The notes under the pieces: model-generated
What the model was told of the DNA's origin: nothing
Databases searched by the model: none
What the model saw: only the letters and a program-made list of their open reading frames with translations
Made by a program: the position numbers and the translations under genes
From: Utricularia gibba
Lineage: Eukaryota > Streptophyta > Magnoliopsida > Lamiales > Lentibulariaceae
Assembly: GCA_002189035.1 (NCBI GenBank)
Contig: NEEC01000163.1
Span: 1 to 64,000 of the forward strand
Direction: 5' to 3'
DNA length: 64,000 nucleotides
In this document: positions 1-64,000 of the stretch, piece by piece
How positions within the stretch are numbered: the stretch's first letter is position 1
Layout of the letters: every line of letters begins with the position of its first letter

Positions 1-1490
1 GCGACTCCTTTGCTCGTTTTTATGCGAAAATTTTTGTCGGATTGCGAAACCCGCGTGATTCGTTAATATATGTAAAATCCTGAATTTCGCAGCATTCTCA
101 TGCGTTTCTATGGGTGTGCTCGGGCCTGGGACTTCCTACACCAAGGGGTGGCCTCGCGCAGCCTTCGCCATTGACGCCACATCGTCCAAACCGTTTAGAG
201 TCACGCGACACACAGCATACCGTTTCGAAGCTCATTCTGAGACGATCGTTTTTCGTGTTGGGAGTCGCCCATCCGAGGAAAGTTCGAAGCTCGAAGGATG
301 GCCTTATATTAGCCTTGAATGTGTTCCCAAAATGGTCTAGCCATTGGGACATCGCGACTCCTTTGCTCCTTTTTATGCGAAAATTATTCTCGGATTGCGA
401 AACGCGTGATTCGTTAATATATGTCAAAATCTTGAATTTCGCGGCATTCTCATGCGTTTCTCCGAGTGTGCTCGGGCCCTGGAATTCCTACATTAAGGGG
501 TGGCCTCGCGCAGCCTTCGCCAATTGACGCCACATCGTCCAAACCGTTTAGAGTCACGCGACACACAGCATACCGTTTCGAAGCTCATTCTGACGATCGT
601 TTTTCGTGTTGGGACGCCCATCCGAGGAAAGTTCGAAGCTTGACGGATGGCCCTATATAAGCCTTGAATGGTGTCACAAAATGGCCTAGCCATTGGGGAC
701 GTTGCGACTCCTTTGCTCGTTTTTATGCGAAAATTGTTCTCGGATTGCGAACACGCGTGATTCGTTAATATATGTAAAATCTGAATTTCGCGGCATTCTC
801 ATGCGTTTCTCCGGTGTGCTCACTTCCTACACCAAGGGTGGCCTCGCGCAGCCTTCGCCATTGACGCCACATCGTCCAAACCGTTTAGAGTCACGCGACA
901 CAGCATACCGTTTCGAAGCTCATTCTGAGACGATCGTTTTTCGTGTTGGGAATCGCCCATCCGAGGAAAGTTCGAAGCTCGACGGATGGCCCTATATAAG
1001 TAATGGTGTCACAAAATGGCCTAGCCATTGGGGACGTTGGACTCGTTTGCTCGTTTTTATGCGAAAATAATCTCGGCTTGCGAAACACGCGTGATTCGTT
1101 AATATATGTAAAAATCTAAATTTCGCGGCATTCTCATGCGTTTCTACGGGTGTGCTCGGGCCCGGGACTTCCTACACCAAGGGGTGGCCTCGCGCAGCCT
1201 TCGCATTGACGCCACATCGTCCAAACCGTTTAGAGTCACGCGACACACAGCATACCGTTTCGAAGCTCATTCTGAGACGATCGTTTTTCGTGTTGGAAGT
1301 TCGCCCATCCGAGGAAAGTTCGAAGCTCGACGGATGGCCCTATATAAGCCTTGAATGGTGTCACAAAATGGCCTAGCCATTGGGGACGTTGGGACTCGTT
1401 TGCTCGTTTTTATGCGAAAATTGTTCTCGGCTTGCGAAACACGCGTGATTCGTTAATATATGTCAAAATCTTGAATTTCGCGGCATTCTC
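1..1490 (+). repeat. Gamma-delta-epsilon-zeta partial block at window start
   Basis: The copies at 100 (ATGGG start, AGTCGCCC, TTATATTAG, GACATCGCG), 452 (type Q with GCCAATTGACG, CTATATAAG), 801 (AATCGCCC, CTATATAAG) and 1136 (GGAAGTTCGCCC, GACGTTGGGACTCG) follow the last four steps of the six-member order and lead into an alpha copy at 1491. The junction entering the first copy has the rare TTTTTGTCGG, shared with the beta-gamma junction near 11576. This makes the stretch a close relative of 11550-13057. Confidence 0.55.
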
Positions 1491-4400
1491 ATGCGTTTCT
1501 CCGAGTGTGCTCGGGCCCTGGGAATTCCTACATTAAGGGGTGGCCTCGCGCAGCCTTCGCCATTGACGCCACATCGTCCAAACCGTTTAGAGTCACGCGA
1601 CACACAGCATACCGTTTCGAAGCTCATTCCGAGACGGTCGTTTTTCGTGTTGGGAGCTTGCCCATCCGAGGAAAGTTCGAAGCTCGAAGGATGGCCTTAT
1701 ATTAGCCTTCAATGTGTCAAAATGGTCTAGCCATTGGGGACATCGCGACTCCTTTGCTCGTTTTTATGCGAAAATTATTCTCGGCTTGCGAAACACGCGT
1801 GATTCGTTAATATATGTCAAAATCTTGAATTTCGCGGCATTCTCATGCGTTTCTCGGGTGTGCTCGGGCCCGGGACTTCCTACACCAAGGGGTGGCCTCG
1901 CGCAGCCTTCGCCATTGACGCCACATCGTCCAAACCGTTTAGAGTCACGCGACACACAGCATACCGTTTCGAAGCTCATTCTGAGACGATCGTTTTTCGT
2001 GTTGGGAGTTCGCCCATCCGAGGAAAGTTCGAAGCTCGACGGATGGCCCTATATAAGCCTTGAATGGTGTCACAAAATGGTCTAGCCATTGGGGACATTG
2101 ACTCCTTTGCTCGTTTTTATGCGAAAATTATTCTCGGATTGCGAAACACGCGTGATTCGTTAATATATGTCAAAATCTTGAATTTCGCGGCATTCTCATG
2201 CGTTTCTCTGTGTGCTCGGGCCCTGGGAATTCCTACATTAAGGGGTGGCCTCGCGCAGCCTTCGCCATTGACGCCACATCGTCCAAACCGTTTAGAGTCA
2301 CGCGAACACACAGCCGTTTCGAAGCTCATTCTGAGACGATCGTTTTTCGTGTTGGGAGTTCGCCCATCCGAGGAAAGTTCGAAGCTCGACGGATGGCCTA
2401 TATAAGCCTTGAATGGTGTCACAAAATGGTCTAGCATTGGGGACGTTGGGACTCGTTTGCTCGTTTTTATGCGAAAATAATCTCGGCTTGCGAAACACGC
2501 GTGATTCGTTAATATATGTCAAAATCTTGAATTTCGCGGCATTCTCATGCGTTTCTCGAGTGTGCTCGGGCCCTGGGAATTCCTACACCAAGGGGTGGCC
2601 TCGCGCAGCCTTCGCAATTGACGCCACATCAAAACCGTTTAGAGTCACGCGACACACAGCATACCGTTTCGAAGCTCATTCTGAGACGATCGTTTTTTGT
2701 GTTGAAAGCGCCCATCCGAGGAAAGTTCGAAGCTCGGATGGCCCTATATAAGCCTTGAATGGTGTCACAAAATGGCCTAGCCATTGGGGACGTTGGACTC
2801 GTTTGCTCGTTTTTATGCGAAAATTGTTCTCGGCTTGCGAAACACGCGTGATTCGTTAATATATGTCAAAATCTTGAATTTCGCGGCATTCTCATGCGTT
2901 TCTCAGTGTGCTCGGGCCCTGGGAATTCCTACATTAAGGGGTGGCCTCGCGCAGCCTTCGCCATTGACGCCACATCGTCCAAACCGTTTAGAGTCACGCG
3001 ACACACAGCATACCGTTTCGAAGCTCATTCTGAGACGGTCGTTTTTCGTGTTGGGAGTTCGCCCATCCGAGGAAAGTTCGAAGCTCGACGGATGGCCTAT
3101 ATAAGCCTTGAATGGTGTCACAAAATGGCCTAGCCATTGGGGACGTTGGGACTCGTTTGCTCGTTTTTATGCGAAAATAATTCGGCTTGCGAACACGCGT
3201 GATTCGTTAATATATGTCAAAATCTTGAATTTCGCGGCATTCTCATGCGTTTCTCGGTGTGCTCGGGCCCTGGGACTTCCTACACCAAGGGGTGGCCTCG
3301 CGCAGCCTTCGCCATTGACGCCACATCGTCCAAACCGTTTAGAGTCACGACACACAGCATACCGTTTCGAAGCTCATTCGAGACGGTCGTTTTTTGTGTT
3401 GGCCCATCCGAGGAAAGTTCGAAGCTCGAAGGATGGCCCTATATAAGCCTTGAATGGTGTCACAAAATGGCCTAGCCATTGGGGACGTTGGGACTCGTTT
3501 GCTCGTTTTTATGCGAAAATTATTCTCGGCTTGCGAAACACGCGTGATTCGTTAATATATGTCAAAATCTTGAATTTCGCGGCATTCTCATGCGTTTCTC
3601 GTGTGCTCGGGCCCTGGGAATTCCTACATTAAGGGGTGGCCTCGCGCAGCCTTCGCCATTGACGCCACATCGTCCAAACCGTTTAGAGTCACGCGACACA
3701 CAGCATACCGTTTCGAAGCTCATTCTGAGACGATCGTTTTTCGTGTTGGGAGTTCGCCCATCGAGGAAAGTTCGAAGCTCGAAGGATGGCCTTATATTAG
3801 CCTTGAATGGTGTCACAAAATGGTCTAGCCATTGGGGACGTTGCGACTCCTTTGCTCGTTTTATGCGAAAATTTTTCTCGGATTGCGAAACACGCGTGAT
3901 TCGTTAATATATGTAAAATCTGAATTTCGCGGCATTCTCATGCGTTTCTGGGTGTGCTCGGGCCTGGGACTTCCTACACCAAGGGGTGGCCTCGCGCAGC
4001 CTTCGCCATTGACGCCACATCGTCAAACCGTTTAGAGTCACGCGACACACAGCATACCGTTTCGAAGCTCATTCTGAGACGATCGTTTTTCGTGTTGGGA
4101 GCTCGCCCATCCGAGGAAAGTTCGAAGCTCGACGGATGGCCTTATATTAGCCTTGAATGGTGTCACAAAATGGTCTAGCCATTGGGGACGTTGCGACTCC
4201 TTTGCTCGTTTTTTATGCGAAAATTATTCTCGGATTGCGAAACACGCGTGATTCGTTAAATATGTCAAAATCTTGAATTTCGCGGCATTCTCATGCGTTT
4301 CTCAGTGTGCTCGGGCCCTGGATTCCTACATTAAGGGGTGGCCTCGCGCAGCCTTCGCCATTGACGCCACATCGTCCAAACCGTTTAGAGTCACGCGACA

Positions 4401-6442
4401 CACAGCATACCGTTTCGAAGCTCATTCTGAGACGATCGTTTTTCGTGTTGGGATCGCCCATCGAGGAAAGTTCGAAGCTCGACGGATGGCCTATATAAGC
4501 CTTGAATGGTGTCACAAAATGGCCTAGCCATTGGGGACGTTGCGACTCCTTTGCTCGTTTTTATGCGAAAATTGTTTCTCGGATTGCGAAACGCGTGATT
4601 CGTTAATATATGTAAAAATCTTGAATTTCGCGGCATTCTCATGCGTTTCTGGGTGTGCTCGGGCCGGGAATTCCTACACAAGGGGTGGCCTCGCGCAGCC
4701 TTCGCCATTGACGCCACATCGTCCAAACGTTTAGAGTCACGCGACACAGCATACCGTTTCGAAGCTCATTCTGAGACGATCGTTTTTCGTGTTGGGAAGC
4801 CCATCCGAGGAAAGTTCGAAGCTCGACGGATGGCCTATATAAGCCTTGAATGGTGTCACAAATGGCCTAGCCATTGGGGACGTTGGGACTCGTTTGCTCG
4901 TTTTTATGCGAAAATATCTCGGCTTGCGAAACACGCGTGATTCGTTAATATATGTAAAATCTTGAATTTCGCGGCATTCTCATGCGTTTCTCGGTGTGCT
5001 CGGGCCCTGGGACTTCCTACACCAAGGGGTGGCCTCGCGCAGCCTTCGCCATTGACGCCACATCGTCCAAACCGTTTAGAGTCACGCGACACAGCATACC
5101 GTTTCGAAGCTCATTCTGAGACGATCGTTTTTCGTGTTGGAAGTTCGCCCATCCGAGGAAAGTTCGAAGCTCGACGGATGGCCTATATAAGCCTTGAATG
5201 GTGTCACAAAATGGCCTAGCCATGGGGACGTTGGGACTCGTTTGCTCGTTTTTATGCGAAAATTGTTCTCGGCTTGCGAAACACGCGTGATTCGTTAATA
5301 TATGTCAAAATCTTGAATTTCGCGGCATTCTCATGCGTTTCTCCGGTGTGCTCGGGCCCTGGGAATTCCTACATTAAGGGGTGGCCTCGCGCAGCCTTCG
5401 CCATTGACGCCACATCGTCCAAACCGTTTAGAGTCACGCGACACACAGCATACCGTTTCGAAGCTCATTCCGAGACGGTCGTTTTTCGTGTTGGGAGTTG
5501 CCCATCCGAGGAAAGTTCGAAGCTCGAAGGATGGCCTTATATAGCCTTCAATGGTGTCACAAAATGGTCTAGCCATTGGGGACATTGCGACTCCTTTGCT
5601 CGTTTTTATGCGAAAATTATTCTCGGCTTGCGAAACACGCGTGATTCGTTAATATATGTCAAAATCTTGAATTTCGCGGCATTCTCATGCGTTTCTCGGG
5701 TGTGCTCGGGCCCGGGAATTCCTACACCAAGGGGTGGCCTCGCGCAGCCTTCGCCATTGACGCCACATCGTCCAAACCGTTTAGAGTCACGCGACACACA
5801 GCATACCGTTTCGAAGCTCATTCTGAGACGATCGTTTTTCGTGTTGGGAGTTCGCCCATCCGAGGAAAGTTCGAAGCTCGACGGATGGCCCTATATAAGC
5901 CTTGAATGGTGTCACAAAATGGCTAGCCATTGGGGACGTCGACTCCTTTGCTCGTTTTTATGCGAAAATTATTCTCGGCTTGCGAAACACGCGTGATTCG
6001 TTAATATATGTCAAAATCTTGAATTTCGCGGCATTCTCATGCGTTTCTCCGTGTGCTCGGGCCCTGGAATTCCTACATTAAGGGGTGGCCTCGCGCAGCC
6101 TTCGCCATTGACGCCACATCGTCCAAACCGTTTAGAGTCACGCGACACACAGCATACCGTTTCGAAGCTCATTCCGAGACGGTCGTTTTTCGTGTTGGGA
6201 GTTCGCCCATCCGAGGAAAGTTCGAAGCTCGACGGATGGCCTATATAAGCCTTGAATGGTGTCACAAAATGGTAGCCATTGGGGACGTTGCGACTCCTTT
6301 GCTCGTTTTTATGCGAAAATCTCGGCTTGCGAAACACGCGTGATTCGTTAATATATGTCAAAATCTTGAATTTCGCGGCATTCTCATGCGTTTCTCGGTG
6401 TGCTCGGGCCCTGGGACTTCCTACACCAAGGGGTGGCCTCGC

Positions 6443-6560
6443 GCAGCCTTCGCTTGACGCCACATGTTTAGAGTCACGCGACACACAGCATACCGTTTCG
6501 AAGCTCATTCTGAGACGGTCGTTTTTCGTGTTGGGTTGCCCATCGAAGCTCGGATGGCCT
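6443..6560 (+). repeat. Monomer with several internal deletions
   Basis: In the copy anchored at 6386, CACATCGTCCAAACCGTTTAG is reduced to CACATGTTTAG. Further on, the CCCATCCGAGGAAAGTTCG stretch plus GACGG is reduced to CCCATCGAAGCTCGGATGG. The interval to the next anchor is about 319 bp. The second loss removes one of the two TTCGAAGCTC copies in part, by joining across related sequence. Confidence 0.85.
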
Positions 6561-7764
6561 ATATAAGCCTTGAATGGTGTCACAAAATGGCCTAGCCATT
6601 GGGGACGTTGGGACTCGTTTGCTCGTTTTTATGCGAAACTCTCGGCTTGCGAAACACGCGTGATTCGTTAATATATGTCAAAATCTGAATTTCGCGGCAT
6701 TCTCATGCGTTTCTCCGAGTGTGCTCGGGCCCTGGGAATTCCTACATTAAGGGGTGGCCTCGCGCAGCCTTCGCCATTGACGCCACATCGTCCAAACCGT
6801 TTAGAGTCACGCGACACACAGCATACCGTTTCGAAGCTCATTCTGAGACGATCGTTTTTCGTGTTGGGAACGCCCATCCGAGGAAAGTTCGAAGCTCGAC
6901 GGATGGCCTATATAAGCCTTGAATGGTGTCACAAAATGGCCTAGCCATTGGGGACGTTGCGACTCCTTTGCTCGTTTTTATGCGAAAATTGTTCTCGGCT
7001 TGCGAAACACGCGTGATTCGTTAATATATGTCAAAATCTTGAATTTCGCGGCATTCTCATGCGTTTCTCCGGGTGTGCTCGGGCCCGGGACTTCCTACAC
7101 CAAGGGGTGGCCTCGCGCAGCCTTCGCCATTGACGCCACATCGTCCAAACCGTTTAGAGTCACGCGACACACAGCATACCGTTTCGAAGCTCATTCTGAG
7201 ACGATCGTTTTTCGTGTTGGGACGCCCATCCGAGGAAAGTTCGAAGCTCGACGGATGGCCCTATATAAGCCTTGAATGGTGTCACAAAATGGCCTAGCCA
7301 TTGGGGACGTTGGGACTCGTTTGCTCGTTTTTATGCGAAAATAATCTCGGCTTGCGAAACACGCGTGATTCGTTAATATATGTAAAAATCTGAATTTCGC
7401 GGCATTCTCATGCGTTTCTCGGGTGTGCTCGGGCCCGGGACTTCCTACACCAAGGGGTGGCCTCGCGCAGCCTTCGCCATTGACGCCACATCGTCCAAAC
7501 CGTTTAGAGTCACGCGACACACAGCATACCGTTTCGAAGCTCATTCTGAGACGGTCGTTTTTCGTGTTGGAAGTTCGCCCATCCGAGGAAAGTTCGAAGC
7601 TCGACGGATGGCCCTATATAAGCCTTGAATGGTGTCACAAAATGGCCTAGCCATTGGGGACGTTGGGACTCGTTTGCTCGTTTTTATGCGAAAATTGTTC
7701 TCGGCTTGCGAAACACGCGTGATTCGTTAATATATGTCAAAATCTTGAATTTCGCGGCATTCTC

Positions 7765-9175
7765 ATGCGTTTCTCCGAGTGTGCTCGGGCCCTGGGAATT
7801 CCTACATTAAGGGGTGGCCTCGCGCAGCCTTCGCCATTGACGCCACATCGTCCAAACCGTTTAGAGTCACGCGACACACAGCATACCGTTTCGAAGCTCA
7901 TTCCGAGACGGTCGTTTTTCGTGTTGGGAGTTGCCCATCCGAGGAAAGTTCGAAGCTCGAAGGATGGCCTTATATTAGCCTTCAATGGTGTCACAAAATG
8001 GTCTAGCCATTGGGGACATTGCGACTCCTTTGCTCGTTTTTATGCGAAAATTATTCTCGGCTTGCGAAACACGCGTGATTCGTTAATATATGTCAAATCT
8101 TGAATTTCGCGGCATTCTCATGCGTTTCTCGGGTGTGCTCGGGCCCGGGACTTCCTACACCAAGGGGTGGCCTCGCGCAGCCTTCGCCATTGACGCCACA
8201 TCGTCCAAACCGTTTAGAGTCACGCGACACACAGCATACCGTTTCGAAGCTCATTCTGAGACGATCGTTTTTCGTGTTGGAAGTTCGCCCATCCGAGGAA
8301 AGTTCGAAGCTCGAAGGATGGCCTTATATTAGCCTTGAATGGTGTCACAAAATGGTCTAGCCATTGGGGACGTTGCGACTCCTTTGCTCGTTTTTATGCG
8401 AAATTTTTCTCGGATTGCGAAACACGCGTGATTCGTTAATATATGTAAAATCCTGAATTTCGCGGCATTCTCATGCGTTTCTGGGTGTGCTCGGGCCTGG
8501 GACTTCCTACACCAAGGGGTGGCCTCGCGCAGCCTTCGCCATTGACGCCACATCGTCCAAACCGTTTAGAGTCACGCGACACACAGCATACCGTTTCGAA
8601 GCTCATTCTGAGACGATCGTTTTTCGTGTTGGGAGCTCGCCCATCCGAGGAAAGTTCGAAGCTCGAAGGATGGCCTTATATTAGCCTTGAATGGTGTCAC
8701 AAAATGGCTAGCCATTGGGGACATTGCGACTCCTTTGCTCGTTTTTATGCGAAAATTATTCTCGGCTTGCGAAACACGCGTGATTCGTTAATATATGTCA
8801 AAATCTTGAATTTCGCGGCATTCTCATGCGTTTCTCCGAGTGTGCTCGGGCCCTGGGAATTCCTACATTAAGGGGTGGCCTCGCGCAGCCTTCGCCATTG
8901 ACGCCACATCGTCCAAACCGTTTAGAGTCACGCGACACACCATACCGTTTCGAAGCTCATTCTGAGACGATCGTTTTTGTGTTGGGATCGCCCATCCGAG
9001 GAAAGTTCGAAGCTCGACGGATGGCCTATATAAGCCTTGAATGGTGTCACAAAATGGCCTAGCCATTGGGGACGTTGGGACTCGTTTGCTCGTTTTTATG
9101 CGAAAATAATCTCGGCTTGCGAAACACGCGTGATTCGTTAATATATGTCAAAATCTTGAATTTCGCGGCATTCTC
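7765..9175 (+). repeat. Alpha-beta-gamma-delta partial block
   Basis: 7765 (type Q, CCGAGACGGTCG, GAAGG, TTATATTAG, CAATGG, GACATTGCG), 8120 (type P, GGAAGTTCGCCC, TTATATTAG, GACGTTGCG), 8473 (GGGTG start, AGCTCGCCC, TTATATTAG, GACATTGCG) and 8826 (type Q, GGGATCGCCC, CTATATAAG) follow the first four steps of the six-member order. The copies after it run zeta-like (9176), beta-like (9532), gamma-like (9887), delta (10240) and zeta-like (10588) before the full block at 10943. Confidence 0.55.
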
Positions 9176-10942
9176 ATGCGTTTCTCCGAGTGTGCTCGGG
9201 CCCTGGGAATTCCTACATTAAGGGGTGGCCTCGCGCAGCCTTCGCCATTGACGCCACATCGTCCAAACCGTTTAGAGTCACGCGACACACAGCATACCGT
9301 TTCGAAGCTCATTCCGAGACGGTCGTTTTTCGTGTTGGGAGTTCGCCCATCCGAGGAAAGTTCGAAGCTCGACGGATGGCCTATATAAGCCTTGAATGGT
9401 GTCACAAAATGGCCTAGCCATTGGGGACGTTGGGACTCGTTTGCTCGTTTTTATGCGAAAATTGTTCTCGGCTTGCGAAACACGCGTGATTCGTTAATAT
9501 ATGTCAAAATCTTGAATTTCGCGGCATTCTCATGCGTTTCTCCGAGTGTGCTCGGCCCTGGGAATTCCTACACCAAGGGGTGGCCTCGCGCAGCCTTCGC
9601 CATTGACGCCACATCGTCCAAACCGTTTAGAGTCACGCGACACACAGCATACCGTTTCGAAGCTCATTCTGAGACGGTCGTTTTTCGTGTTGGAAGTTCG
9701 CCCATCCGAGGAAAGTTCGAAGCTCGAAGGATGGCCTTATATTAGCCTTGAATGGTGTCACAAAATGGTCTAGCCATTGGGGACGTTGCGACTCCTTTGC
9801 TCGTTTTTATGCGAAAATTTTCTCGGATTGCGAAACACGCGTGATTCGTTAATATATGTAAAAATCTTGAATTTCGCGGCATTCTCATGCGTTTCTAGGG
9901 TGTGCTCGGGCCCTGGGAATTCCTACACCAAGGGGTGGCCTCGCGCAGCCTTCGCCATTGACGCCACATCGTCCAAACCGTTTAGAGTCACGCGACACAC
10001 AGCATACCGTTTCGAAGCTCATTCTGAGACGATCGTTTTTCGTGTTGGGAGCTCGCCCATCCGAGGAAAGTTCGAAGCTCGAAGGATGGCCTTATATAGC
10101 CTTGAATGGTTTCACAAAATGGTCTAGCCATTGGGGACATCGCGACTCCTTTGCTCGTTTTTATGCGAAAATTATTCTCGGATTGCGAAACACGCGTGAT
10201 TCGTTAATATATGTCAAAATCTTGAATTTCGCCATTCTCATGCGTTTCTCCGAGTGTGCTCGGGCCCTGGAATTCCTACATTAAGGGGTGGCCTCGCGCA
10301 GCCTTCGCAATTGACGCCACATCGTCCAAACCGTTTAGAGTCACGCGACACAGCATACCGTTTCGAAGCTCATTCTGAGACGATCGTTTTTCGTGTTGGG
10401 AAATCGCCCATCCGAGGAAAGTTCGAAGCTCGACGGATGGCCCTATATAAGCCTTGAATGGTGTCACAAAATGGCCTAGCCATTGGGGACGTTGGGACTC
10501 CTTTGCTCGTTTTTATGCGAAAATATCTCGGCTTGCGAAACACGCGTGATTCGTTAATATATGTAAAATCTTGAATTTCGCATTCTCATGCGTTTCTCCG
10601 AGTGTGCTCGGGCCCTGGGAATTCCTACATTAAGGGGTGGCCTCGCGCAGCCTTCGCAATTGACGCCACATCGTCCAAACCGTTTAGAGTCACGCGACAC
10701 ACAGCATACCGTTTCGAAGCTCATTCCGAGACGGTCGTTTTTCGTGTTGGAAGTTCGCCCATCCGAGGAAAGTTCGAAGCTCGACGGATGGCCCTATATA
10801 AGCCTTGAATGGTGTCACAAAATGGCTAGCCATTGGGGACGTTGGGACTCGTTTGCTCGTTTTTATGCGAAAATTGTTCTCGGCTGCGAAACACGCGTGA
10901 TTCGTTAATATATGTCAAAATCTTGAATTTCGCGGCATTCTC

Positions 10943-13057
10943 ATGCGTTTCTCCGAGTGTGCTCGGGCCCTGGGAATTCCTACATTAAGGGGTGGCCTCG
11001 CGCAGCCTTCGCCATTGACGCCACATCGTCCAAACCGTTTAGAGTCACGCGACACACAGCATACCGTTTCGAAGCTCATTCCGAGACGGTCGTTTTTCGT
11101 GTTGGGAGCTTGCCCATCCGAGGAAAGTTCGAAGCTCGAAGGATGGCCTTATATAGCCTTCAATGTGTCACAAAATGGTCTAGCCATTGGGGACATCGCG
11201 ACTCCTTTGCTCGTTTTTATGCGAAAATTATTCTCGGCTTGCGAAACACGCGTGATTCGTTAATATATATCTTGAATTTCGCGGCATTCTCATGCGTTTC
11301 TCGGGTGTGCTCGGGCCCCGGGACTTCCTACACCAAGGGGTGGCCTCGCGCAGCCTTCGCCATTGACGCCACATCGTCCAAACCGTTTAGAGTCACGCGA
11401 CACACAGCATACCGTTTCGAAGCTCATTCTGAGACGATCGTTTTTCGTGTTGGAAGTTCGCCCATCCGAGGAAAGTTCGAAGCTCGAAGGATGGCCTTAT
11501 ATTAGCCTTGAATGGTTTCACAAAATGGTCTAGCCATTGGGGACGTTGCGACTCCTTTGCTCGTTTTTATGCGAAAATTTTTGTCGGATTGCGAAACACG
11601 CGTGATTCGTTAATATATGTAAAATCTGAATTTCGCGGCATTCTCATGCGTTTCTATGGGTGTGCTCGGGCTGGGACCTACACCAAGGGGTGGCCTCGCG
11701 CAGCCTTCGCCATTGACGCCACATCGTCCAAACCGTTTAGAGTCACGCGACACACAGCATACCGTTTCGAAGCTCATTCTGAGACGATCGTTTTTCGTGT
11801 TGGGAGTCGCCCATCCGAGGAAAGTTCGAAGCTCGAAGGATGGCCTTATATTAGCCTTGAATGGTGTCACAAAATGGTCTAGCCATTGGGGACGTTGCGA
11901 CTCCTTTGCTCGTTTTTATGCGAAAATTATTCTCGGATTGCGAAACACGCGTGATTCGTTAATATATGTCAAAATCTTGAATTTCGCCATTCTCATGCGT
12001 TTCTCCGAGTGTGCTCGGGCCCTGGGATTCCTACATTAAGGGGTGGCCTCGCGCAGCCTTCGCCAATTGACGCCACATCGTCCAAACCGTTTAGAGTCAC
12101 GCGACACACAGCATACCGTTTCGAAGCTCATTCTAAGACGATCGTTTTTCGTGTTGGGAAATCGCCCATCCGAGGAAAGTTCGAAGCTCGACGGATGGCC
12201 CTATATAAGCCTTGAATGGTGTCACAAAATGGCCTAGCCATTGGGACGTTGCGACTCCTTTGCTCGTTTTTATGCGAAAATTGTCTCGGATTGCGAAACA
12301 CGCGTGATTCGTTAATATATGTAAAAATCCTTGAATTTCGCGGCATTCTCATGCGTTTCTATGGGTGTGCTCGGGCCGGGACTTCCTACACCAAGGGGTG
12401 GCCTCGCGCAGCCTTCGCCATTGACGCCACATCGTCCAACCGTTTAGAGTCACGCGACACACAGCATACCGTTTCGAAGCTCATTCTGAGACGATCGTTT
12501 TTCGTGTTGGGAATCGCCCATCCGAGGAAAGTTCGAAGCTCGACGGATGGCCCTATATAAGCCTTGAATGGTGTCACAAAATGGCCTAGCCATTGGGGAC
12601 GTTGGGACTCCTTTGCTCGTTTTTATGCGAAAATAATTCTCGGCTTGCGAAACACGCGTGATTCGTTAATATATGTAAAAATCTGAATTTCGCGGCATTC
12701 TCATGCGTTTCTAGGGTGTGCTCGGGCCCTGGGACTTCCTACACCAAGGGTGGCCTCGCGCAGCCTTCGCCATTGACGCCACATCGTCCAAACCGTTTAG
12801 AGTCACGCGACACACAGCATACCGTTTCGAAGCTCATTCTGAGACGATCGTTTTTCGTGTTGGAAGTTCGCCCATCCGAGGAAAGTTCGAAGCTCGACGG
12901 ATGGCCCTATATAAGCCTTGAATGGTGTCACAAAATGGCCTAGCCATTGGGGACGTTGGGACTCGTTTGCTCGTTTTTATGCGAAAATTATTCTCGGCTT
13001 GCGAAACACGCGTGATTCGTTAATATATGTCAAAATCTTGAATTTCGCGGCATTCTC
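10943..13057 (+). repeat. Complete six-monomer higher-order block, copy 1 (~2.1 kb)
   Basis: Six diagnosable monomers occur in order. Alpha (10943): type Q, CCGAGACGGTCG, AGCTTGCCC, GAAGGATGG, TTATATAG, CAATG, then a GACATCGCG junction. Beta (11292): type P, GGAAGTTCGCCC, GAAGG, TTATATTAG. Gamma (11646): ATGGG start, AGTCGCCC, GAAGG, TTATATTAG. Delta (11995): type Q, GGGAAATCGCCC, GACGG, CTATATAAG, GACGTTGCG. Epsilon (12351): ATGGG start, AATCGCCC, CTATATAAG, GACGTTGGG. Zeta (12703): GGAAGTTCGCCC, GACGG, CTATATAAG, GACGTTGGGACTCG. The next copy, 13058, is again type Q. The same order recurs at 33120. Confidence 0.65.
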
Positions 13058-15176: not shown

Positions 15177-15200
15177 ATGCGTTTCTATAACTTCCTACAC
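15177..15200 (+). repeat. Monomer lacking the GTGTGCTCGGGCC block
   Basis: After the anchor at 15177 the sequence goes from TTTCTATA straight to ACTTCCTACACC. The 18-19 bases that normally hold GGGTGTGCTCGGGCCCGGG are missing. The rest of the copy is full length and matches the epsilon member (GGGAAATCGCCC, CTATATAAG, ACTAATCTCGG junction). A smaller loss of the same block occurs in the copy anchored at 801 (CGGTGTGCTCACTTCC). Confidence 0.85.
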
Positions 15201-42419: not shown

Positions 42420-42440
42420 TGGGAATCGAAAAAGTTCGAA
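42420..42440 (+). repeat. Monomer lacking CCCATCCGAGG
   Basis: In the copy anchored at 42264, GGGAATCG runs directly into AAAAAGTTCGAAGC, so the CCCATCCGAGG block found in nearly every other copy is gone. Spacing to the next anchor is about 337 bp. Confidence 0.8.
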
Positions 42441-48400: not shown

Positions 48401-49332
48401 TGGCCCTATATAAGCCTTGAATGGTGTCACAAAATGGCCTAGCCATTGGGGACGTTGGGACTCGTTTGCTCGTTTTTATGCGAAAATTGTTCTCGGCTTG
48501 CGAAACACGCGTGATTCGTTAATATATGTCAAAATCTTGAATTTCGCGGCATTCTCATGCGTTTCTCCGAGTGTGCTCGGGCCCTGGGAATTCCTACATT
48601 AAGGGGTGGCCTCGCGCAGCCTTCGCCATTGACGCCACATCGTCCAAACCGTTTAGAGTCACGCGACACACAGCATACCGTTTCGAAGCTCATTCCGAGA
48701 CGGTCGTTTTTCGTGTTGGGAGCTTGCCCATCCGAGGAAAGTTCGAAGCTCGAAGGATGGCCTTATATTAGCCTTGAATGTGTCCCAAAATGGTCTAGCC
48801 ATTGGGGACGTTGACTCCTTTGCTCGTTTTTATGCGAAAATCTCGGCTTGCGAAACACGCGTGATTCGTTAATATATGTCAAAATCTTGAATTTCGCGGC
48901 ATTCTCATGCGTTTCTACGGGTGTGCTCGGGCCCCGGGACTTCCTACACCAAGGGGTGGCCTCGCGCAGCCTTCGCCATTGACGCCACATCGTCCAAACC
49001 GTTTAGAGTCACGCGACACACAGCATACCGTTTCGAAGCTCATTCTGAGACGATCGTTTTTCGTGTTGGAAGTTCGCCCATCCGAGGAAAGTTCGAAGCT
49101 CGACGGATGGCCTATATAAGCCTTGAATGGTGTCACAAAATGGCCTAGCCATTGGGGACGTTGGGACTCGTTTGCTCGTTTTTATGCGAAAATTGTTCTC
49201 GGCTTGCGAAACACGCGTGATTCGTTAATATATGTCAAAATCTTGAATTTCGCGGCATTCTCATGCGTTTCTCCGAGTGTGCTCGGGCCCTGGGAATTCC
49301 TACATTAAGGGGTGGCCTCGCGCAGCCTTCGC

Positions 49333-49365
49333 CATGACGCCACATCGTTTTTAGAGTTACCGTTT
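49333..49365 (+). repeat. Monomer with loss of the CGCGACACACAGCATA block
   Basis: In the copy anchored at 49263 the usual path CGTCCAAACCGTTTAGAGTC, CGCGACACACAGCATACCG is replaced by CATCGTTTTTAGAGTTACCG. About 20-25 bp are missing in two pieces. Spacing to the next anchor is about 325 bp. The flanking sequence is normal on both sides. Confidence 0.85.
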
Positions 49366-51693: not shown

Positions 51694-54600
51694 ATGCGTT
51701 TCTCCGAGTGTGCTCGGGCCCTGGGAATTCCTACATTAAGGGGTGGCCTCGCGCAGCCTTCGCCATTGACGCCACATCGTCCAAACCGTTTAGAGTCACG
51801 CGACACACAGCATACCGTTTCGAAGCTCATTCCGAGACGGTCGTTTTTCGTGTTGGGAGTCGCCCATCCGAGGAAAGTTCGAAGCTCGACGGATGGCCTA
51901 TATAAGCCTTGAATGGTGTCACAAATGGTCTAGCCATTGGGGACATTGCGACTCCTTTGCTCGTTTTTATGCGAAAATATTCGGGCTTGCGAAACACGCG
52001 TGATTCGTTAATATATGTCAAAATCTTGAATTTCGCGGCATTCTCATGCGTTTCTCCGTGTGCTCGGGCCCTGGGAATTCCTACACCAAGGGGTGGCCTC
52101 GCGCAGCCTTCGCCATTGACGCCACATCGTCCAAACCGTTTAGAGTCACGCGACACACAGCATACCGTTTCGAAGCTCATTCCGAGACGGTCGTTTTTTG
52201 TGTTGAAAGTTGCCCATCCGAGGAAAGTTCGAAGCTCGAAGGATGGCCCTATATAAGCCTTGAATGGTGTCACAAAATGGCCTAGCCATTGGGGACGTTG
52301 GGACTCGTTTGCTCGTTTTTATGCGAAAATTTCTCGGCTTGCGAAACACGCGTGATTCGTTAATATATGTCAAAATCTTGAATTTCGCGGCATTCTCATG
52401 CGTTTCTCGGGTGTGCTCGGGCCCGGGACTTCCTACACCAAGGGGTGGCCTCGCGCAGCCTTCGCCATTGACGCCACATCGTCCAAACCGTTTAGAGTCA
52501 CGCGACACACAGCATACCGTTTCGAAGCTCATTCTGAGACGGTCGTTTTTTCGTGTTGGGAGTCGCCCATCCGAGGAAAGTTCGAAGCTCGACGGATGGC
52601 CCTATATAAGCCTTGAATGGTGTCACAAAATGGCCTAGCCATTGGGGACGTTGCGACTCGTTTGCTCGTTTTTATGCGAAAATAATTCGGCTTGCGAAAC
52701 ACGCGTGATTCGTTAATATATGTCAAAATCTTGAATTTCGCGGCATTCTCATGCGTTTCTCCGGGTGTGCTCGGGCCCTGGGAATTCCTACACCAAGGGG
52801 TGGCCTCGCGCAGCCTTCGCCATTGACGCCACAATCGTCCAAACCGTTTAGAGTCACGCGACACACAGCATACCGTTTCGAAGCTCATTCTGAGACGATC
52901 GTTTTTCGTGTTGGAGTCGCCCATCCGAGGAAAGTTCGAAGCTCGACGGATGGCCCTATATAAGCCTTGAATGGTGTCACAAAATGGCCTAGCCATTGGG
53001 GACGTTGCGACTCCTTTGCTCGTTTTTATGCGAAAACTCTCGGCTTGCGAAACACGCGTGATTCGTTAATATATGTAAAAATCTTGAATTTCGCGGCATT
53101 CTCATGCGTTTCTACGGGTGTGCTCGGGGGGACTTCCTACACCAAGGGGTGGCCTCGCGCAGCCTTCGCCATTGACGCCACATCGTCCAAACCGTTTAGA
53201 GTCACGCGACACACAGCATACCGTTTCGAAGCTCATTCTGAGACGATCGTTTTTCGTGTTGGGAGTCGCCCATCCGAGGAAAGTTCGAAGCTCGAAGGAT
53301 GCCTATATTAAGCCTTGAATGGTGTCACAAAATGGTCCTAGCCATTGGGGACGTTGCGACTCCTTTGCTCGTTTTTATGCGAAAATTTCTCGGATTGCGA
53401 AACACGCGTGATTCGTTAATATATGTCAAAATCTGAATTTCGCGGCATTCTCATGCGTTTCTCGTGTGCTCGGGCCAACTTCCTACACCAAGGGGTGGCC
53501 TCGCGCAGCCTTCGCCATTGACGCCACATCGTCCAAACCGTTTAGAGTCACGCGACACACAGCATACCGTTTCGAAGCTCATTCTGAGACGATCGTTTTT
53601 CGTGTTGGGAGTTCGCCCATCCGAGGAAAGTTCGAAGCTCGACGGATGGCCCTATATAAGCCTTGAATGGTGTCACAAAATGGCCTAGCCATTGGGGACG
53701 TTGCGACTCCTTTGCTCGTTTTTATGCGAAAATTTTCTCGGCTTGCGAAACACGCGTGATTCGTTAATATATGTCAAAATCTTGAATTTCGCGGCATTCT
53801 CATGCGTTTTCTCGAGTGTGCTCGGGCCCTGGGAATTTCCTACACCAAGGGGTGGCCTCGCGCAGCCTTCGCCATTGACGCCACATCGTCCAAACCGTTT
53901 AGAGTCACGCGACACACAGCATACCGTTTCGAAGCTCATTCTGAGACGGTCGTTTTTCGTGTTGGGAGCGCGCCATCCGAGGAAAGTTCGAAGCTCGAAG
54001 GATGGCCCTATATAGCCTTGAATGGTGTCACAAAATGGCCTAGCCATTGGGGACGTTGGACTCCTTTGCTCGTTTTTATGCGAAAATTATTCTCGGCTTG
54101 CGAAACACGCGTGATTCGTTAATATATGTCAAAATCTTGAATTTCGCGGCATTCTCATGCGTTTCTACGGGTGTGCTCGGGCCCTGGGACTTCCTACACC
54201 AAGGGGTGGCCTCGCGCAGCCTTCGCCATTGACGCCACATCGTCCAAACCGTTTAGAGTCACGCGACACACAGCATACCGTTTCGAAGCTCATTCTGAGA
54301 CGATCGTTTTTCGTGTTGGGAGTTCGCCATCCGAGGAAAGTTCGAAGCTCGACGGATGGCCCTATATAAGCCTTGAATGGTGTCACAAAATGGCCTAGCC
54401 ATTGGGGACATTGCGACTCCTTTGCTCGTTTTTATGCGAAAATTATTCTCGGATTGCGAAACACGCGTGATTCGTTAATATATGTCAAAATCTTGAATTT
54501 CGCGGCATTCTCATGCGTTTCTCCGAGTGTGCTCGGGCCCTGGGAATTCCTACATTAAGGGGTGGCCTCGCGCAGCCTTCGCCATTGACGCCACATCGTC

Positions 54601-57600
54601 CAAACCGTTTAGAGTCACGCGACACACAGCATACCGTTTCGAAGCTCATTCTGAGACGATCGTTTTTCGTGTTGGGAGTTCCCATCCGAGGAAAGTTCGA
54701 AGCTCGACGGATGGCCCTATATAAGCCTTGAATGGTGTCACAAAATGGCCTAGCCATTGGGGACGTTGGGACTCGTTTGCTCGTTTTTATGCGAAAATAA
54801 TTCTCGGCTTGCGAAACACGCGTGATTCGTTAATATATGTCAAAATCTTGAATTTCGCGGCATTCTCATGCGTTTCTCGAGTGTGCTCGGGCCCTGGGAC
54901 TTCCTACACCAAGGGGTGGCCTCGCGCAGCCTTCGCCATTGACGCCACATCGTCCAAACCGTTTAGAGTCACGCGACACACAGCATACCGTTTCGAAGCT
55001 CATTCCGAGACGGTCGTTTTTCGTGTTGGGAGCTTGCCCATCCGAGGAAAGTTCGAAGCTCGAGGATGGCCCTATATAAGCCTTGAATGGTGTCACAAAT
55101 GGCTAGCCATTGGGGACGTTGGACTCCTTTGCTCGTTTTTATGCGAAAATTATTCTCGGATTGCGAAACACGCGTGATTCGTTAATATATGTCAAAATCT
55201 TGAATTTCGCGGCATTCTCATGCGTTTCTCCGAGTGTGCTCGGGCCCTGGGAATTCCTACATTAAGGGGTGGCCTCGCGCAGCCTTCGCCATTGACGCCA
55301 CATCGTCCAAACCGTTTAGAGTCACGCGACACACAGCATACCGTTTCGAAGCTCATTCTGAGACGATCGTTTTTCGTGTTGGGAGTTGCCCATCCGAGGA
55401 AAGTTCGAAGCTCGAAGGATGGCCTTATATTAGCCTTGAATGGTGTCACAAAATGGTCTAGCCATTGGGGACGTTGCGACTCCTTTGCTCGTTTTTATGC
55501 GAAAATTATTCTCGGCTTGCGAAACACGCGTGATTCGTTAATATATGTCAAAATCTTGAATTTCGCGGCATTCTCATGCGTTTCTCGGGTGTGCTCGGGC
55601 CCGGGACTTCCTACACCAAGGGGTGGCCTCGCGCAGCCTTCGCCATTGACGCCACATCGTCCAAACCGTTTAGAGTCACGCGACACACAGCATACCGTTT
55701 CGAAGCTCATTCTGAGACGATCGTTTTTCGTGTTGGGAGTTCGCCCATCCGAGGAAAGTTCGAAGCTCGAAGGATGGCCTATATTAGCCTTGAATGGTGT
55801 CACAAAATGGTCTAGCCATTGGGGACGTTGCGACGCGTTTGCTCGTTTTTATGCGAAAATTGTCGGATTGCGAAACACGCGTGATTCGTTAATATATGTC
55901 AAAATCTTGAATTTCGCGCATTCTCATGCGTTTCTATGGGTGTGCTCGGGCCCTGGGACTTCCTACACCAAGGGGTGGCCTCGCGCAGCCTTCGCCATTG
56001 ACGCCACATCGTCCAAACCGTTTAGAGTCACGCGACACACAGCATACCGTTTCGAAGCTCATTCTGAGACGGTCGTTTTTCGTGTTGGGAGTTCGCCCAT
56101 CCGAGGAAAGTTCGAAGCTCGACGGATGGCCTATATAAGCCTTGAATGGTGTCACAAAATGGCCTAGCCATTGGGGACGTTGGGACTCGTTTGCTCGTTT
56201 TTATGCGAAAACTAATCTCGGCTTGCGAAACACGCGTGATTCGTTAATATATGTCAAAATCTTGAATTTCGCGGCATTCTCATGCGTTTCTCCGAGTGTG
56301 CTCGGGCCCTGGGAATTCCTACATTAAGGGGTGGCCTCGCGCAGCCTTCGCAATTGACGCCACACGTCCAAACCGTTTAGAGTCACGCGACACACAGCAT
56401 ACCGTTTCGAAGCTCATTCTGAGACGTCGTTTTTCGTGTTGGAAGTTGCCCATCCGAAAGTTCGAAGCTCGAAGGATGGCCCTATATAAGCCTTGAATGG
56501 TGTCACAAAATGGCCTAGCCATTGGGGACGTTGGGACTCGTTTGCTCGTTTTTATGCGAAAATTGTTCTCGGCTTGCGAAACACGCGTGATTCGTTAATA
56601 TATGTCAAAATCTTGAATTTCGCGGCATTCTCATGCGTTTCTCCGAGTGTGCTCGGGCCCTGGGAATTCCTACATTAAGGGGTGGCCCTCGCGCAGCCTT
56701 CGCCATTGACGCCACATCGTCCAAACCGTTTAGAGTCACGCGACACACAGCATACCGTTTCGAAGCTCATTCCGAGACGGTCGTTTTTCGTGTTGGGAGT
56801 TCGCCCATCCGAGGAAAGTTCGAAGCTCGACGGGATGGCCCTATATAAGCCTTGAATGGTGTCACAAAATGGCTAGCCATTGGGGACGTTGCGACTCCTT
56901 TGCTCGTTTTTATGCGAAAATTATTCTCGGCTTGCGAAACACGCGTGATTCGTTAATATATGTCAAAAATTGAATTTCGCGGCATTCTCATGCGTTTCTA
57001 GTGTGCTCGGGCCCTGGGAATTCCTACATTAAGGGGTGGCCTCGCGCAGCCTTCGCCATTGACGCCACATCGTCCAAACCGTTTAGAGTCACGCGACACA
57101 CAGCATACCGTTTCGAAGCTCATTCTGAGACGATCGTTTTTCGTGTTGGGAGTTCGCCCATCCGAGGAAAGTTCGAAGCTCGACGGATGGCCCTATATAA
57201 GCCTTGAATGGTGTCACAAAATGGCCTAGCCATTGGGGACGTTGGGACTCGTTTGCTCGTTTTTATGCGAAAATAATTCTCGGCTTGCGAAACACGCGTG
57301 ATTCGTTAATATATGTCAAAATCTTGAATTTCGCGGCATTCTCATGCGTTTCTCCGGTGTGCTCGGGCCCTGGGACTTCCTACACCAAGGGGTGGCCTCG
57401 CGCAGCCCTTCGCCATTGACGCCACGTCCAAAAACCGTTTAGAGTCACGCGACACACAGCATACCGTTTCGAAGCTCATTCCGAGACGGTCGTTTTTCGT
57501 GTTGGGAGCTTGCCCATCCGAAAGTTCGAAGCTCGAAGGATGGCCCTATATAAGCCTTGAATGGTGTCACAAAATGGTCTAGCCATTGGGGACGTTGGGA

Positions 57601-60600
57601 CTCGTTTGCTCGTTTTTATGCGAAAATTGTTCTCGGCTTGCGAAACACGCGTGATTCGTTAATATATGTCAAAATCTTGAATTTCGCGGCATTCTCATGC
57701 GTTTCTCCGAGTGTGCTCGGGCCCTGGGAATTCCTACATTAAGGGGTGGCCTCGCGCAGCCTTCGCCATTGACGCCACATCGTCCAAACCGTTTAGAGTC
57801 ACGCGACACACAGCATACCGTTTCGAAGCTCATTCCGAGACGGTCGTTTTTCGTGTTGGGAGTTGCCCATCCGAGGAAAGTTCGAAGCTCGAAGGATGGC
57901 CTTATAAGCCTTCAATGGTGTCACAAAATGGTCTAGCCATTGGGGACATTGCGACTCCTTTGCTCGTTTTTATGCGAAAATTATTCTCGGCTTGCGAAAC
58001 ACGCGTGATTCGTTAATATATGTCAAAATCTTGAATTTCGCGGCATTCTCATGCGTTTCTCGGGTGTGCTCGGGCCCTGGGAATTCCTACACCAAGGGGT
58101 GGCCTCGCGCAGCCTTCGCCATTGACGCCACATCGTCCAAACCGTTTAGAGTCACGCGACACACAGCATACCGTTTCGAAGCTCATTCTGAGACGATCGT
58201 TTTTCGTGTTGGGAGTCGCCCATCCGAGGAAAGTTCGAAGCTCGAGGATGGCCTATATAGCCTTGAATGGTGTCACAAAATGGTCTAGCCATTGGGGACG
58301 TTGCGACTCCTTTGCTCGTTTTTATGCGAAAATTTTTCTCGGCTTGCGAAACACGCGTGATTCGTTAATATATGTCAAAATCTTGAATTTCGCGGCATTC
58401 TCATGCGTTTCTCGGGTGTGCTCGGGCCCTGGGACTTCCTACACCAAGGGGTGGCCTCGCGCAGCCTTCGCCATTGACGCCACATCGTCCAAACCGTTTA
58501 GAGTCACGCGACACACAGCATACGTTTCGAAGCTCATTCTGAGACGATCGTTTTTCGTGTTGGGAGTTCGCCCATCCGAGGAAAGTTCGAAGCTCGACGG
58601 ATGGCCCTATATAAGCCTTGAATGGTGTCACAAAATGGCCTAGCCATTGGGGACGTTGCGACTCCTTTGCTCGTTTTTATGCGAAAATATTCTCGGCTTG
58701 CGAAACACGCGTGATTCGTTAATATATGTCAAAATCTTGAATTTCGCGGCATTCTCATGCGTTTCTCGGTGTGCTCGGGCCCTGGGAATTCCTACACCAA
58801 GGGGTGGCCTCGCGCAGCCTTCGCCATTGACGCCACATCTCCAAACCGTTTAGAGTCACGCGACACACAGCATACCGTTTCGAAGCTCATTCTGAGACGG
58901 TCGTTTTTCGTGTTGGGAGGCCCATCCGAGGAAAGTTCGAAGCTCGACGGATGGCCCTATATAAGCCTTGAATGGTGTCACAAAATGGCCTAGCCATTGG
59001 GACGTTGGGACTCGTTTGCTCGTTTTTATGCGAAAATTGTTCTCGGCTTGCGAAACACGCGTGATTCGTTAATATATGTCAAAATCTTGAATTTCGCGCA
59101 TTCTCATGCGTTTCTCCGAGTGTGCTCGGGCCCTGGGAATTCCTACATTAAGGGGTGGCCTCGCGCAGCCTTCGCCATTGACGCCACATCGTCCAAACCG
59201 TTTAGAGTCACGCGACACACAGCATACCGTTTCGAAGCTCATTCTGAGACGGTCGTTTTTCGTGTTGGGAGCTTGCCCATCCGAGGAAGTTCGAAGCTCG
59301 AAGGATGGCCCTATATTAGCCTTCAATGGTGTCACAAAATGGTCTAGCCATTGGGGACGTTGCGACTCCTTTGCTCGTTTTTATGCGAAAATTATTCTCG
59401 GATTGCGAAACACGCGTGATTCGTTAATATATGTCAAAATCTTGAATTTCGCGGCATTCTCATGCGTTTCTCGGTGTGCTCGGGCCCTGGGACTTCCTAC
59501 ACCAAGGGTGGCCTCGCGCAGCCTTCGCCATTGACGCCACATCGTCCAAACCGTTTAGAGTCACGCGACACACAGCATACCGTTTCGAAGCTCATTCTGA
59601 GACGATCGTTTTTCGTGTTGGAGTCGCCCATCCGAGGAAAGTTCGAAGCTCGAAGGATGGCCTATATTAGCCTTGAATGGTGTCACAAAATGGTCTAGCC
59701 ATTGGGGACGTTGCGACTCCTTTGCTCGTTTTTATGCGAAAATTTTCTCGGATTGCGAAACACGCGTGATTCGTTAATATATGTCAAAATCTTGAATTTC
59801 GCGGCATTCTCATGCGTTTCTGGGTGTGCTCGGGCCTGGGACTTCCTACACCAAGGGGTGGCCTCGCGCAGCCTTCGCCATTGACGCCACATCGTCCAAA
59901 CCGTTTAGAGTCACGCGACACACAGCATACCGTTTCGAAGCTCATTCCGAGACGGTCGTTTTTCGTGTTGGGAGTTCGCCCATCCGAGGAAAGTTCGAAG
60001 CTCGACGGATGGCCCTATATAAGCCTTGAATGGTGTCACAAAATGGCCTAGCCATTGGGGACGTTGCGACTCCTTTGCTCGTTTTTATGCGAAAATAATC
60101 TCGGCTTGCGAAACACGCGTGATTCGTTAATATATGTCAAAATCTTGAATTTCGCGGCATTCTCATGCGTTTCTCGTGTGCTCGGGCCCGGGGACTTCCT
60201 ACACCAAGGGGTGGCCTCGCGCAGCCTTCGCCATTGACGCCACATCGTCCAAACCGTTTAGAGTCACGCGACACACAGCATACCGTTTCGAAGCTCATTC
60301 TGAGACGGTCGTTTTTCGTGTTGGGAGCTTGCCCATCCGAAAAGTTCGAAGCTCGGATGGCCCTATATAAGCCTTGAATGGTGTCACAAAATGGCCTAGC
60401 CATTGGGGACGTTGCGACTCGTTTGCTCGTTTTTATGCGAAAATTATTCTCGGCTTGCGAAACACGCGTGATTCGTTAATATATGTCAAAATCTTGAATT
60501 TCGCGCATTCTCATGCGTTTCTCGAGTGTGCTCGGCCCGGGAATTCCTACATTAAGGGGTGGCCTCGCGCAGCCTTCGCCATTGACGCCACATCGTCCAA

Positions 60601-63600
60601 ACCGTTTAGAGTCACGCGACACACAGCATACCGTTTCGAAGCTCATTCTGAGACGCGTTTTTCGTGTTGGGAGCTTGCCCATCCGAGGAAAGTTCGAAGC
60701 TCGAAGGATGGCCCTATATAGCCTTCAATGGTGTCACAAAATGGCTAGCCATTGGGGACGTTGCGACTCCTTTGCTCGTTTTTATGCGAAAACTCGGCTT
60801 GCGAAACACGCGTGATTCGTTAATATATGTCAAAATCTTGAATTTCGCGGCATTCTCATGCGTTTCTCGGGTGTGCTCGGGCCCCGGGACTTCCTACACC
60901 AAGGGGTGGCCTCGCGCAGCCTTCGCCATTGACGCCACATCGTCCAAACCGTTTAGAGTCACGCGACACACAGCATACCGTTTCGAAGCTCATTCTGAGA
61001 CGATCGTTTTTCGTGTTGGGAGTCGCCCATCCGAGGAAAGTTCGAAGCTCGAGGATGGCCCTATATTAAGCCTTGAATGGTGTCACAAATGGTCTAGCCA
61101 TTGGGGACGTTGCGACTCCTTTGCTCGTTTTTATGCGAAAATTGTCTCGGATTGCGAAACACGCGTGATTCGTTAATATATGTCAAAATCTTGAATTTCG
61201 CGGCATTCTCATGCGTTTCTACGGGTGTGCTCGGGCCTGGGACTTCCTACACCAAGGGGTGGCCTCGCGCAGCCTGCATTGACGCCACATCGTCCAAACC
61301 GTTTAGAGTCACGCGACACACAGCATACCGTTTCGAAGCTCATTCTGAGACGATCGTTTTTCGTGTTGGGAGTCGCCCATCCGAGGAAAGTTCGAAGCTC
61401 GAAGGATGGCCCTATATAGCCTTGAATGGTGTCACAAAATGGTCTAGCCATTGGGGACATTGCGACTCCTTTGCTCGTTTTTATGCGAAAATTATTCTCG
61501 GATTGCGAAACACGCGTGATTCGTTAATATATGTCAAAATCTTGAATTTCGCGCATTCTCATGCGTTTCTCCGGTGTGCTCGGGCCTGGGAATTCCTACA
61601 AAGGGGTGGCCTCGCGCAGCCTTCGCCATTGACGCCACATCGTCCAAACCGTTTAGAGTCACGCGACACACAGCATACCGTTTCGAAGCTCATTCTGAGA
61701 CGATCGTTTTTCGTGTTGGGAGTCGCCCATCCGAGGAAAGTTCGAAGCTCGACGGATGGCCCTATATAAGCCTTGAATGGTGTCACAAAATGGCCTAGCC
61801 ATTGGGGACGTTGCGACTCCTTTGCTCGTTTTTATGCGAAAATTGTTCTCGGATTGCGAAACACGCGTGATTCGTTAATATATGTCAAAATCTGAATTTC
61901 GCGGCATTCTCATGCGTTTCTAGGTGTGCTCGGGTGGGAATTCCTACACCAAGGGGTGGCCTCGCGCAGCCTTCGCCATTGACGCCACATCGTCCAAACC
62001 GTTTAGAGTCACGCGACACACAGCATACCGTTTCGAAGCTCATTCTGAGACGATCGTTTTTCGTGTTGGGAGTCGCCCATCCGAGGAAAGTTCGAAGCTC
62101 GACGGATGGCCCTATATAAGCCTTGAATGTGTCACAAAATGGCCTAGCCATTGGGGACGTTGGGACTCGTTTGCTCGTTTTTATGCGAAAATAATCTCGG
62201 CTTGCGAAACACGCGTGATTCGTTAATATATGTCAAAATCTTGAATTTCGCGGCATTCTCATGCGTTTCTCGAGTGTGCTCGGGCCCTGGGAATTCCTAC
62301 ACCAAGGGGTGGCCTCGCGCAGCCTTCGCCATTGACGCCACATCGTCCAAACCGTTTAGAGTCACGCGACACACAGCATACCGTTTCGAAGCTCATTCTG
62401 AGACGATCGTTTTTCGTGTTGGGAGTTCGCCCATCCGAGGAAAGTTCGAAGCTCGACGGATGGCCCTATATAAGCCTTGAATGGTGTCACAAAATGGCTA
62501 GCCATTGGGGACGTTGCGACTCGTTTGCTCGTTTTTATGCGAAAATTATTCTCGGCTTGCGAAACACGCGTGATTCGTTAATATATGTCAAAATCTTGAA
62601 TTTCGCGGCATTCTCATGCGTTTCTCCGAGTGTGCTCGGGCCCTGGGAATTCCTACATTAAGGGGTGGCCTCGCGCAGCCTTCGCCATTGACGCCACATC
62701 GTCCAAACCGTTTAGAGTCACGCGACACACAGCATACCGTTTCGAAGCTCATTCCGAGACGGTCGTTTTTCGTGTTGGGAGTTGCCCATCCGAGGAAAGT
62801 TCGAAGCTCGAAGGATGGCCTTATATTAGCCTTCAATGGTGTCACAAAATGGCTAGCCATTGGGGACGTTGCGACTCCTTTGCTCGTTTTTATGCGAAAA
62901 TTATTCTCGGCTTGCGAAACACGCGTGATTCGTTAATATATGTCAAAATCTTGAATTTCGCGGCATTCTCATGCGTTTCTCGGGTGTGCTCGGGCCGGGA
63001 CTTCCTACACCAAGGGGTGGCCTCGCGCAGCCTTCGCCATTGACGCCACATCGTCCAAACCGTTTAGAGTCACGCGACACACAGCATACCGTTTCGAAGC
63101 TCATTCTGAGACGGTCGTTTTTCGTGTTGGGAGTTCGCCCATCCGAGGAAAGTTCGAAGCTCGAAGGATGGCCCTATATAAGCCTTGAATGGTGTCACAA
63201 AATGGTCTAGCCATTGGGGACATTGACTCCTTTGCTCGTTTTTATGCGAAAATTATTCTCGGCTTGCGAAACACGCGTGATTCGTTAATATATGTCAAAA
63301 TCTTGAATTTCGCGGCATTCTCATGCGTTTCTCGTGTGCTCGGGCCCTGGGAATTCCTACATTAAGGGGTGGCCTCGCGCAGCCTTCGCCATTGACGCCA
63401 CATCGTCCAAACCGTTTAGAGTCACGCGACACACAGCATACCGTTTCGAAGCTCATTCCGAGACGGTCGTTTTTCGTGTTGGGAGTTCGCCCATCCGAGG
63501 AAAGTTCGAAGCTCGACGGATGGCCCTATATAAGCCTTGAATGGTGTCACAAAATGGCCTAGCCATTGGGGACGTTGCGACTCGTTTGCTCGTTTTTATG

Positions 63601-64000
63601 CGAAAATAATCTCGGCTTGCGAAACACGCGTGATTCGTTAATATATGTCAAAATCTTGAATTTCGCGGCATTCTCATGCGTTTCTCGTGTGCTCGGGCCC
63701 TGGGACTTCCTACACCAAGGGGTGGCCTCGCGCAGCCTTCGCCATTGACGCCACATCGTCCAAAACCGTTTAGAGTCACGCGACACACAGCATACCGTTT
63801 CGAAGCTCATTCGAGACGGTCGTTTTTTGTGTTGGGAGCGCCCATCCGAGAAAAGTTCGAAGCTCGAAGGATGGCCCTATATAAGCCTTGAATGGTGTCA
63901 CAAAATGGCCTAGCCATTGGGGACGTTGGGACTCCTTTGCTCGTTTTTATGCGAAAATTTTTCTCGGCTTGCGAAACACGCGCGTGATTCGTTAATATAT
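51694..64000 (+). repeat. Array segment 6, monomer register to window end
   Basis: Anchors and types: 51694Q 52046M 52398P 52751M 53104P 53453P 53802M 54157P 54513Q 54868P 55220Q 55576P 55926P 56282Q 56633Q 56990Q 57344P 57697Q 58051M 58403P 58757M 59106Q 59462P 59812P 60165P 60513Q 60858P 61211P 61561M 61912M 62261M 62616Q 62971P 63323Q 63676P. There are 35 copies. Three M copies in a row at 61561-62261 are the longest such run in the window. The last monomer is cut off by the window edge. Just before the end it has a two-base CG expansion in the MluI region (CACGCGCGTG near 63980). Confidence 0.9.

Follow-up and report, generated by a model that had tools for sequence, protein, structure and literature searches.

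One-base deletions at family-defining columns of a satellite array in Utricularia gibba and their probable origin in the assembly consensus

The satellite array described here raises the question of whether its many one-base deletions belong to the DNA or were introduced when the contig was assembled. The window, which is the whole stretch of 64,000 nucleotides that was analysed, begins at the first base of contig C74, which is 84,521 bp long and belongs to an assembly of 100.09 Mb in 516 contigs. The same satellite continues beyond the window so that the entire contig is array, and on C402, a contig of 2.63 Mb, it covers the initial 135 kb or more; it occupies parts of C382 and C410 as well. 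A pattern search of the assembly contigs for one diagnostic short form located it on these four contigs only. Comparison with Rfam and a plasmid collection, neither of which is expected to contain plant satellites, gave no match.

Deletions concentrate at polymorphic columns

The 181 complete monomers of the window were aligned, and each was then re-aligned to a profile in which either allele is allowed at polymorphic columns, defined as those whose second allele reaches at least 5%. The alignment has 357 columns, 28 (8%) of which are polymorphic. The window contains 671 deletion events, 470 of them of one base, together with 45 inserted bases and 67 private substitutions. There are thus more than ten deletions for each inserted base and ten for each private substitution, a balance unlike that of mutation. 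Nearly half of the deleted bases (519 of 1,088, 48%) lie in the polymorphic columns, and 301 of the 470 one-base deletions can be placed on one, compared with 53.6±7.0 when deletions are randomised within the same monomers (200 runs, maximum 75). The stricter count of deletions that can be placed solely on polymorphic columns is 46, against 10.1±3.4 expected, and an expectation matched for run length, using the rates of equally long non-polymorphic runs, is 28.7 for the 301 observed. Relative to the random expectation the enrichment is about 6-fold, and relative to the run-length-matched one about 10-fold. Hybrid products that are one base longer are rare; at column 190, for example, there are 29 short forms and one long form.

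The first-pass annotation had proposed that losses fall mainly at columns that differ between monomer families, and the alignment bears this out; all 21 of the examples it cited are present, within 2 bases of the positions given. It had also described the remaining losses as mostly homopolymeric. Of the 133 that lie away from polymorphic columns 106 are indeed in runs of at least two, but most of these are runs of two.

Higher-order repeat structure was considered as a source of the pattern, but no higher-order repeat or local homogenisation was found in the window, and adjacent monomers are no more identical in their alleles than random pairs. Allele identity is slightly negative at lag 1 and slightly positive at lags 11-30. 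That neighbours are no more alike than random pairs fits an array in which the copies were not individually resolved, although local structure could be missing from a genuine array as well. We note that at columns 117 and 118 the minor allele A clusters strongly along the contig (z of about 6), unlike most other minor alleles.

A neighbour rule and mirror-image blocks

The enrichment is confined to columns at which at least one allele is identical to an adjacent base. Column 249 (CGG[C/A]TTG) has a minor allele at 29% and no one-base losses in the window, column 171 (CTT[G/C]AAT) likewise has none, and column 206 (GAC[G/A]TTG) has one. The corresponding short forms number 0, 0 and 1 on C402, as counted by exact-match site counting over 135 kb. 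Among the worst columns for losses are 158 (C[C/T]T) and 164 (T[A/T]A), at which both alleles equal a neighbour. The earlier suggestion that losses target informative columns is thus correct as to the enrichment and too general as to its reach, because columns 249, 171 and 206 are nearly spared. Each of the one-column examples in that annotation has a neighbour-equal allele, so that its loss can also be read as the shortening of a run.

A more complex pattern is seen when the columns are divided by the side on which the identical base lies. Columns 190, 118 and 319, where an allele equals its right neighbour, were taken as R sites, and columns 91, 98, 149, 216 and 342, where an allele equals its left neighbour, as L sites. 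Losses at L sites are crowded between 12.0 and 22.5 kb of the window, and those at R sites lie mostly outside this interval. A two-state segmentation of C74, with rates learned from C402, fits better than all of 2000 shuffles of the monomer order, and the resulting blocks are listed in Table 1 with examples of each type of loss.

Table 1. Coordinates of the array, its segmentation blocks and representative losses in the window
Feature	Position	Strand	Details
Satellite array, head to tail	1..64000	+	monomer ~354 bp; 181 complete monomers
R block	1..12002	+	11 R events, 2 L; two-state model, C402 rates
L block	12003..22945	+	16 L events, 3 R; two-state model, C402 rates
R block	22946..64000	+	runs to 82,955 of the contig; 95 R, 15 L over the whole block; two-state model
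Right-type loss, column 190	5921..5928	+	GGCTAGCC from GGCCTAGCC/GGTCTAGCC
Left-type loss, column 216	14368..14375	+	ACTCTTTG from ACTCCTTTG/ACTCGTTTG; inside the L block
Double loss, columns 158 and 164	29418..29428	+	GGCCTATATAG; alleles each neighbour-equal; lost in both block types

The same alternation is found on C402. Losses at column 190 occupy three intervals there (3.8-19.7, 72-79 and 102-130 kb), and losses at column 216 occupy two others (31.9-68.3 and 82-100 kb) that do not overlap them. Blocks on this contig were defined from columns 190, 118, 216 and 91, and between R and L blocks the losses divide 25:0 at column 190 and 0:27 at column 216. The sites that were held out follow in the predicted direction (R blocks to L blocks, 2:34 for L site 342, 2:19 for L site 98 and 32:12 for R site 319). 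The frequency of either allele at a site is about the same in R blocks as in L blocks. A third contig, C410, opens with an 11-kb L block, with dozens of L-type losses before 11.1 kb and none of R type. The L and R blocks are complementary and are 10-60 kb long.

A prediction fixed in advance for four further sites in the window was only half borne out. Losses at column 118 are absent from the L block, as expected, but those at 319 are no more than weakly depleted there; columns 337 and 120 are not enriched in the L block, contrary to prediction. Columns 337, 120, 282 and 149 also have no clean block pattern on C402. Columns 337 and 120 sit in complex variable stretches, and 282 adjoins a run of A. 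Insertion and substitution totals for C402 are unreliable because about 10-20 kb of its array is scrambled and badly cut, and the conclusions for this contig rest on the exact-match site counts, with per-column rates serving as support only. The scrambling is seen at approximately 57-78 kb, where shortened and shuffled fragments of monomers adjoin one another in the wrong order; this stretch may be a badly merged consensus or truly degraded sequence.

Origin of the deletions

The deletions are very probably a product of assembly, in which mixed satellite reads were merged by a graph consensus with one-sided gap pushing. Noisy long reads from closely related monomer families would be indistinguishable and would be piled onto one seed read. 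The consensus graph would split each mismatch into an insertion-deletion pair and shove the gaps to one side, and the program pbdagcon does split mismatches and normalise gaps by pushing them to the right. Where an allele equals the next base, an edge that bypasses a base would form, and the best path could enter through one family and leave through the other, so that the consensus would be one base shorter and need not match any read. With a seed reading ...G T C T... and a read ...G C C T..., for example, pushing right would align the first C of the read to the C of the seed and leave the second C as an insertion, such that the edges from G to C and from C to T join as G C T, which is shorter than either family sequence. 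Where neither allele equals a neighbour there would be no bypass, only a simple fork at which one allele wins. Because the direction of pushing would be set by the seed read, seeds of opposite strand would lose bases at mirror-image columns. We infer that the reads were mixed and that they were merged by pbdagcon or a closely related program; the edges of the blocks are probably joins between seed reads.

The choice of columns that lose bases, and its dependence on strand, was reproduced in a simplified re-implementation of graph consensus in which noisy reads of two families were aligned to a noisy seed, each mismatch was converted to an insertion-deletion pair, gaps were pushed right in the orientation of the seed, and the best path was scored by edge weight minus half the coverage. 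A 50:50 mixture gave losses at columns 190, 282, 158, 164 and 210 with seeds of the + strand, and at 91, 98, 149, 216, 342, 158, 164 and 210 with seeds of the - strand; columns 171, 206 and 249 had near zero loss on both. The rates observed in R and L blocks correlate with the simulated + and - rates (Spearman 0.75), compared with 0.12 when the strands are swapped. When gap pushing was turned off the strand difference disappeared and losses at these columns were several-fold lower. The simulation produced roughly one insertion per two deletions, more than are present in the array, so that the real program must differ in detail. Monomers with at least three such losses have weaker linkage between diagnostic columns than those with none (mean r2 0.26 vs 0.38, P=0.01), as is expected if a sequence switches families along its path.

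The first-pass annotation had attributed the deletions to a consensus that drops a base wherever mixed reads disagree. The enrichment, the blocks and the simulation support a mixed-read consensus artefact, but the rule as worded is too broad; columns without a matching neighbour are nearly spared and the side of the loss is set by the block, so plain disagreement is insufficient.

Real deletions are very unlikely as the source. One biological scenario is replication slippage in two-base runs, with spread by unequal crossing-over and gene conversion; indels do occur in real satellites, and for each of the enriched single columns there is one family or more in which a run of at least two bases can form. 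Non-polymorphic two-base runs, however, lose 0.011 per run compared with about 0.1 at columns such as 190, and slippage gives no reason for the paucity of insertions, or for a blockwise switch between left-equal and right-equal columns at constant allele frequencies. Spread by duplication is also at odds with the distribution of the deletions, as adjacent monomers have no common deletions beyond chance. Sharing at lag 1 in the window equals that of random pairs (z=0.2) and is weak at lags 1-10 (z=2.3), contrary to the biological expectation that neighbouring or duplicated monomers share deletions.

Heteroduplex repair between families is a more specific proposal, in which realignment at a mismatch beside an identical base leaves a loop of one base, which is then removed. 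The observed dependence on two alleles and on a neighbour-equal base is what it would require, and the removal of loops could favour one strand; the losses would then be real, arising from mismatches in inter-family exchange that are resolved beside an identical base with a strand preference over domains of 10-60 kb. That preference would have to flip between blocks of this size on three contigs and leave almost no insertions, and the same mirror rule arises from a gap-pushing consensus with no biology at all, so we regard this explanation as extremely unlikely.

Plain uncorrected homopolymer errors of long reads, independent of mixing, are extremely improbable as the cause. Bases are indeed lost from runs of two to four, and from the 5S rDNA arrays of the same assembly, but in the run-length-matched comparison such errors explain some 29 of the 301 polymorphic-column events and are thereby largely refuted, and simulated unmixed reads with the same error rate give almost no losses and leave these columns intact. 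The 5S rDNA arrays, on contigs C223 and C224 with a unit of about 546 bp, have more deletions than substitutions, mostly in homopolymers, and the losses reach inside the 5S gene at a run of C (alignment columns 87-91). Elsewhere in the assembly, and for actin exons alone, many exons are open without stop codons; the actin genes have an exon arrangement of the plant type.

Consequences and comparison with known systems

If the deletions were made in assembly as proposed, then satellite monomers in older assemblies of noisy long reads can bear invented deletions at the very positions that define families, and monomer length spectra, variant catalogues and divergence estimates drawn from such arrays would be wrong. 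The sequence of the window is accordingly unsuited to statistics on monomer length, indels or families unless the reads are consulted. The neighbour rule and the left/right blocks provide a read-free screen that can be applied to other assemblies.

In its general form the array resembles plant tandem satellites with units of about 350 bp, which are arranged head to tail in hundreds of copies and comprise several monomer families, as here. The putative centromeres of Utricularia gibba have been reported to be without satellite repeats (PMC8333044). HGAP, which builds preassembled reads from seed reads, was used for the Utricularia gibba assembly, and the mean length of the reads was 10,385 (PMC5793159); if the assembly analysed here is that one, the 10.9-kb L block is about one read long.

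Merging of variants into a haploid consensus has been described in diploid Candida assemblies, where a passage of PMC5592916, citing Butler et al. 2009, reports errors that truncate genes. The likeness is that two variants are fused into one erroneous consensus; the difference is that the variants here are satellite families, and that the errors could be assigned to neighbour-equal columns and have a direction that depends on strand. The literature searched gave no account of strand-dependent losses at neighbour-equal columns. Another close counterpart is the consensus step itself. Canu uses the graphs of pbdagcon and falcon_sense, in which reads are aligned to a template, represented as a directed acyclic graph and resolved by the best path (PMC5411767), and these programs, used in HGAP, FALCON and Canu, share with the mechanism proposed here the alignment of reads to a seed, the graph built from them and the best path taken through it.
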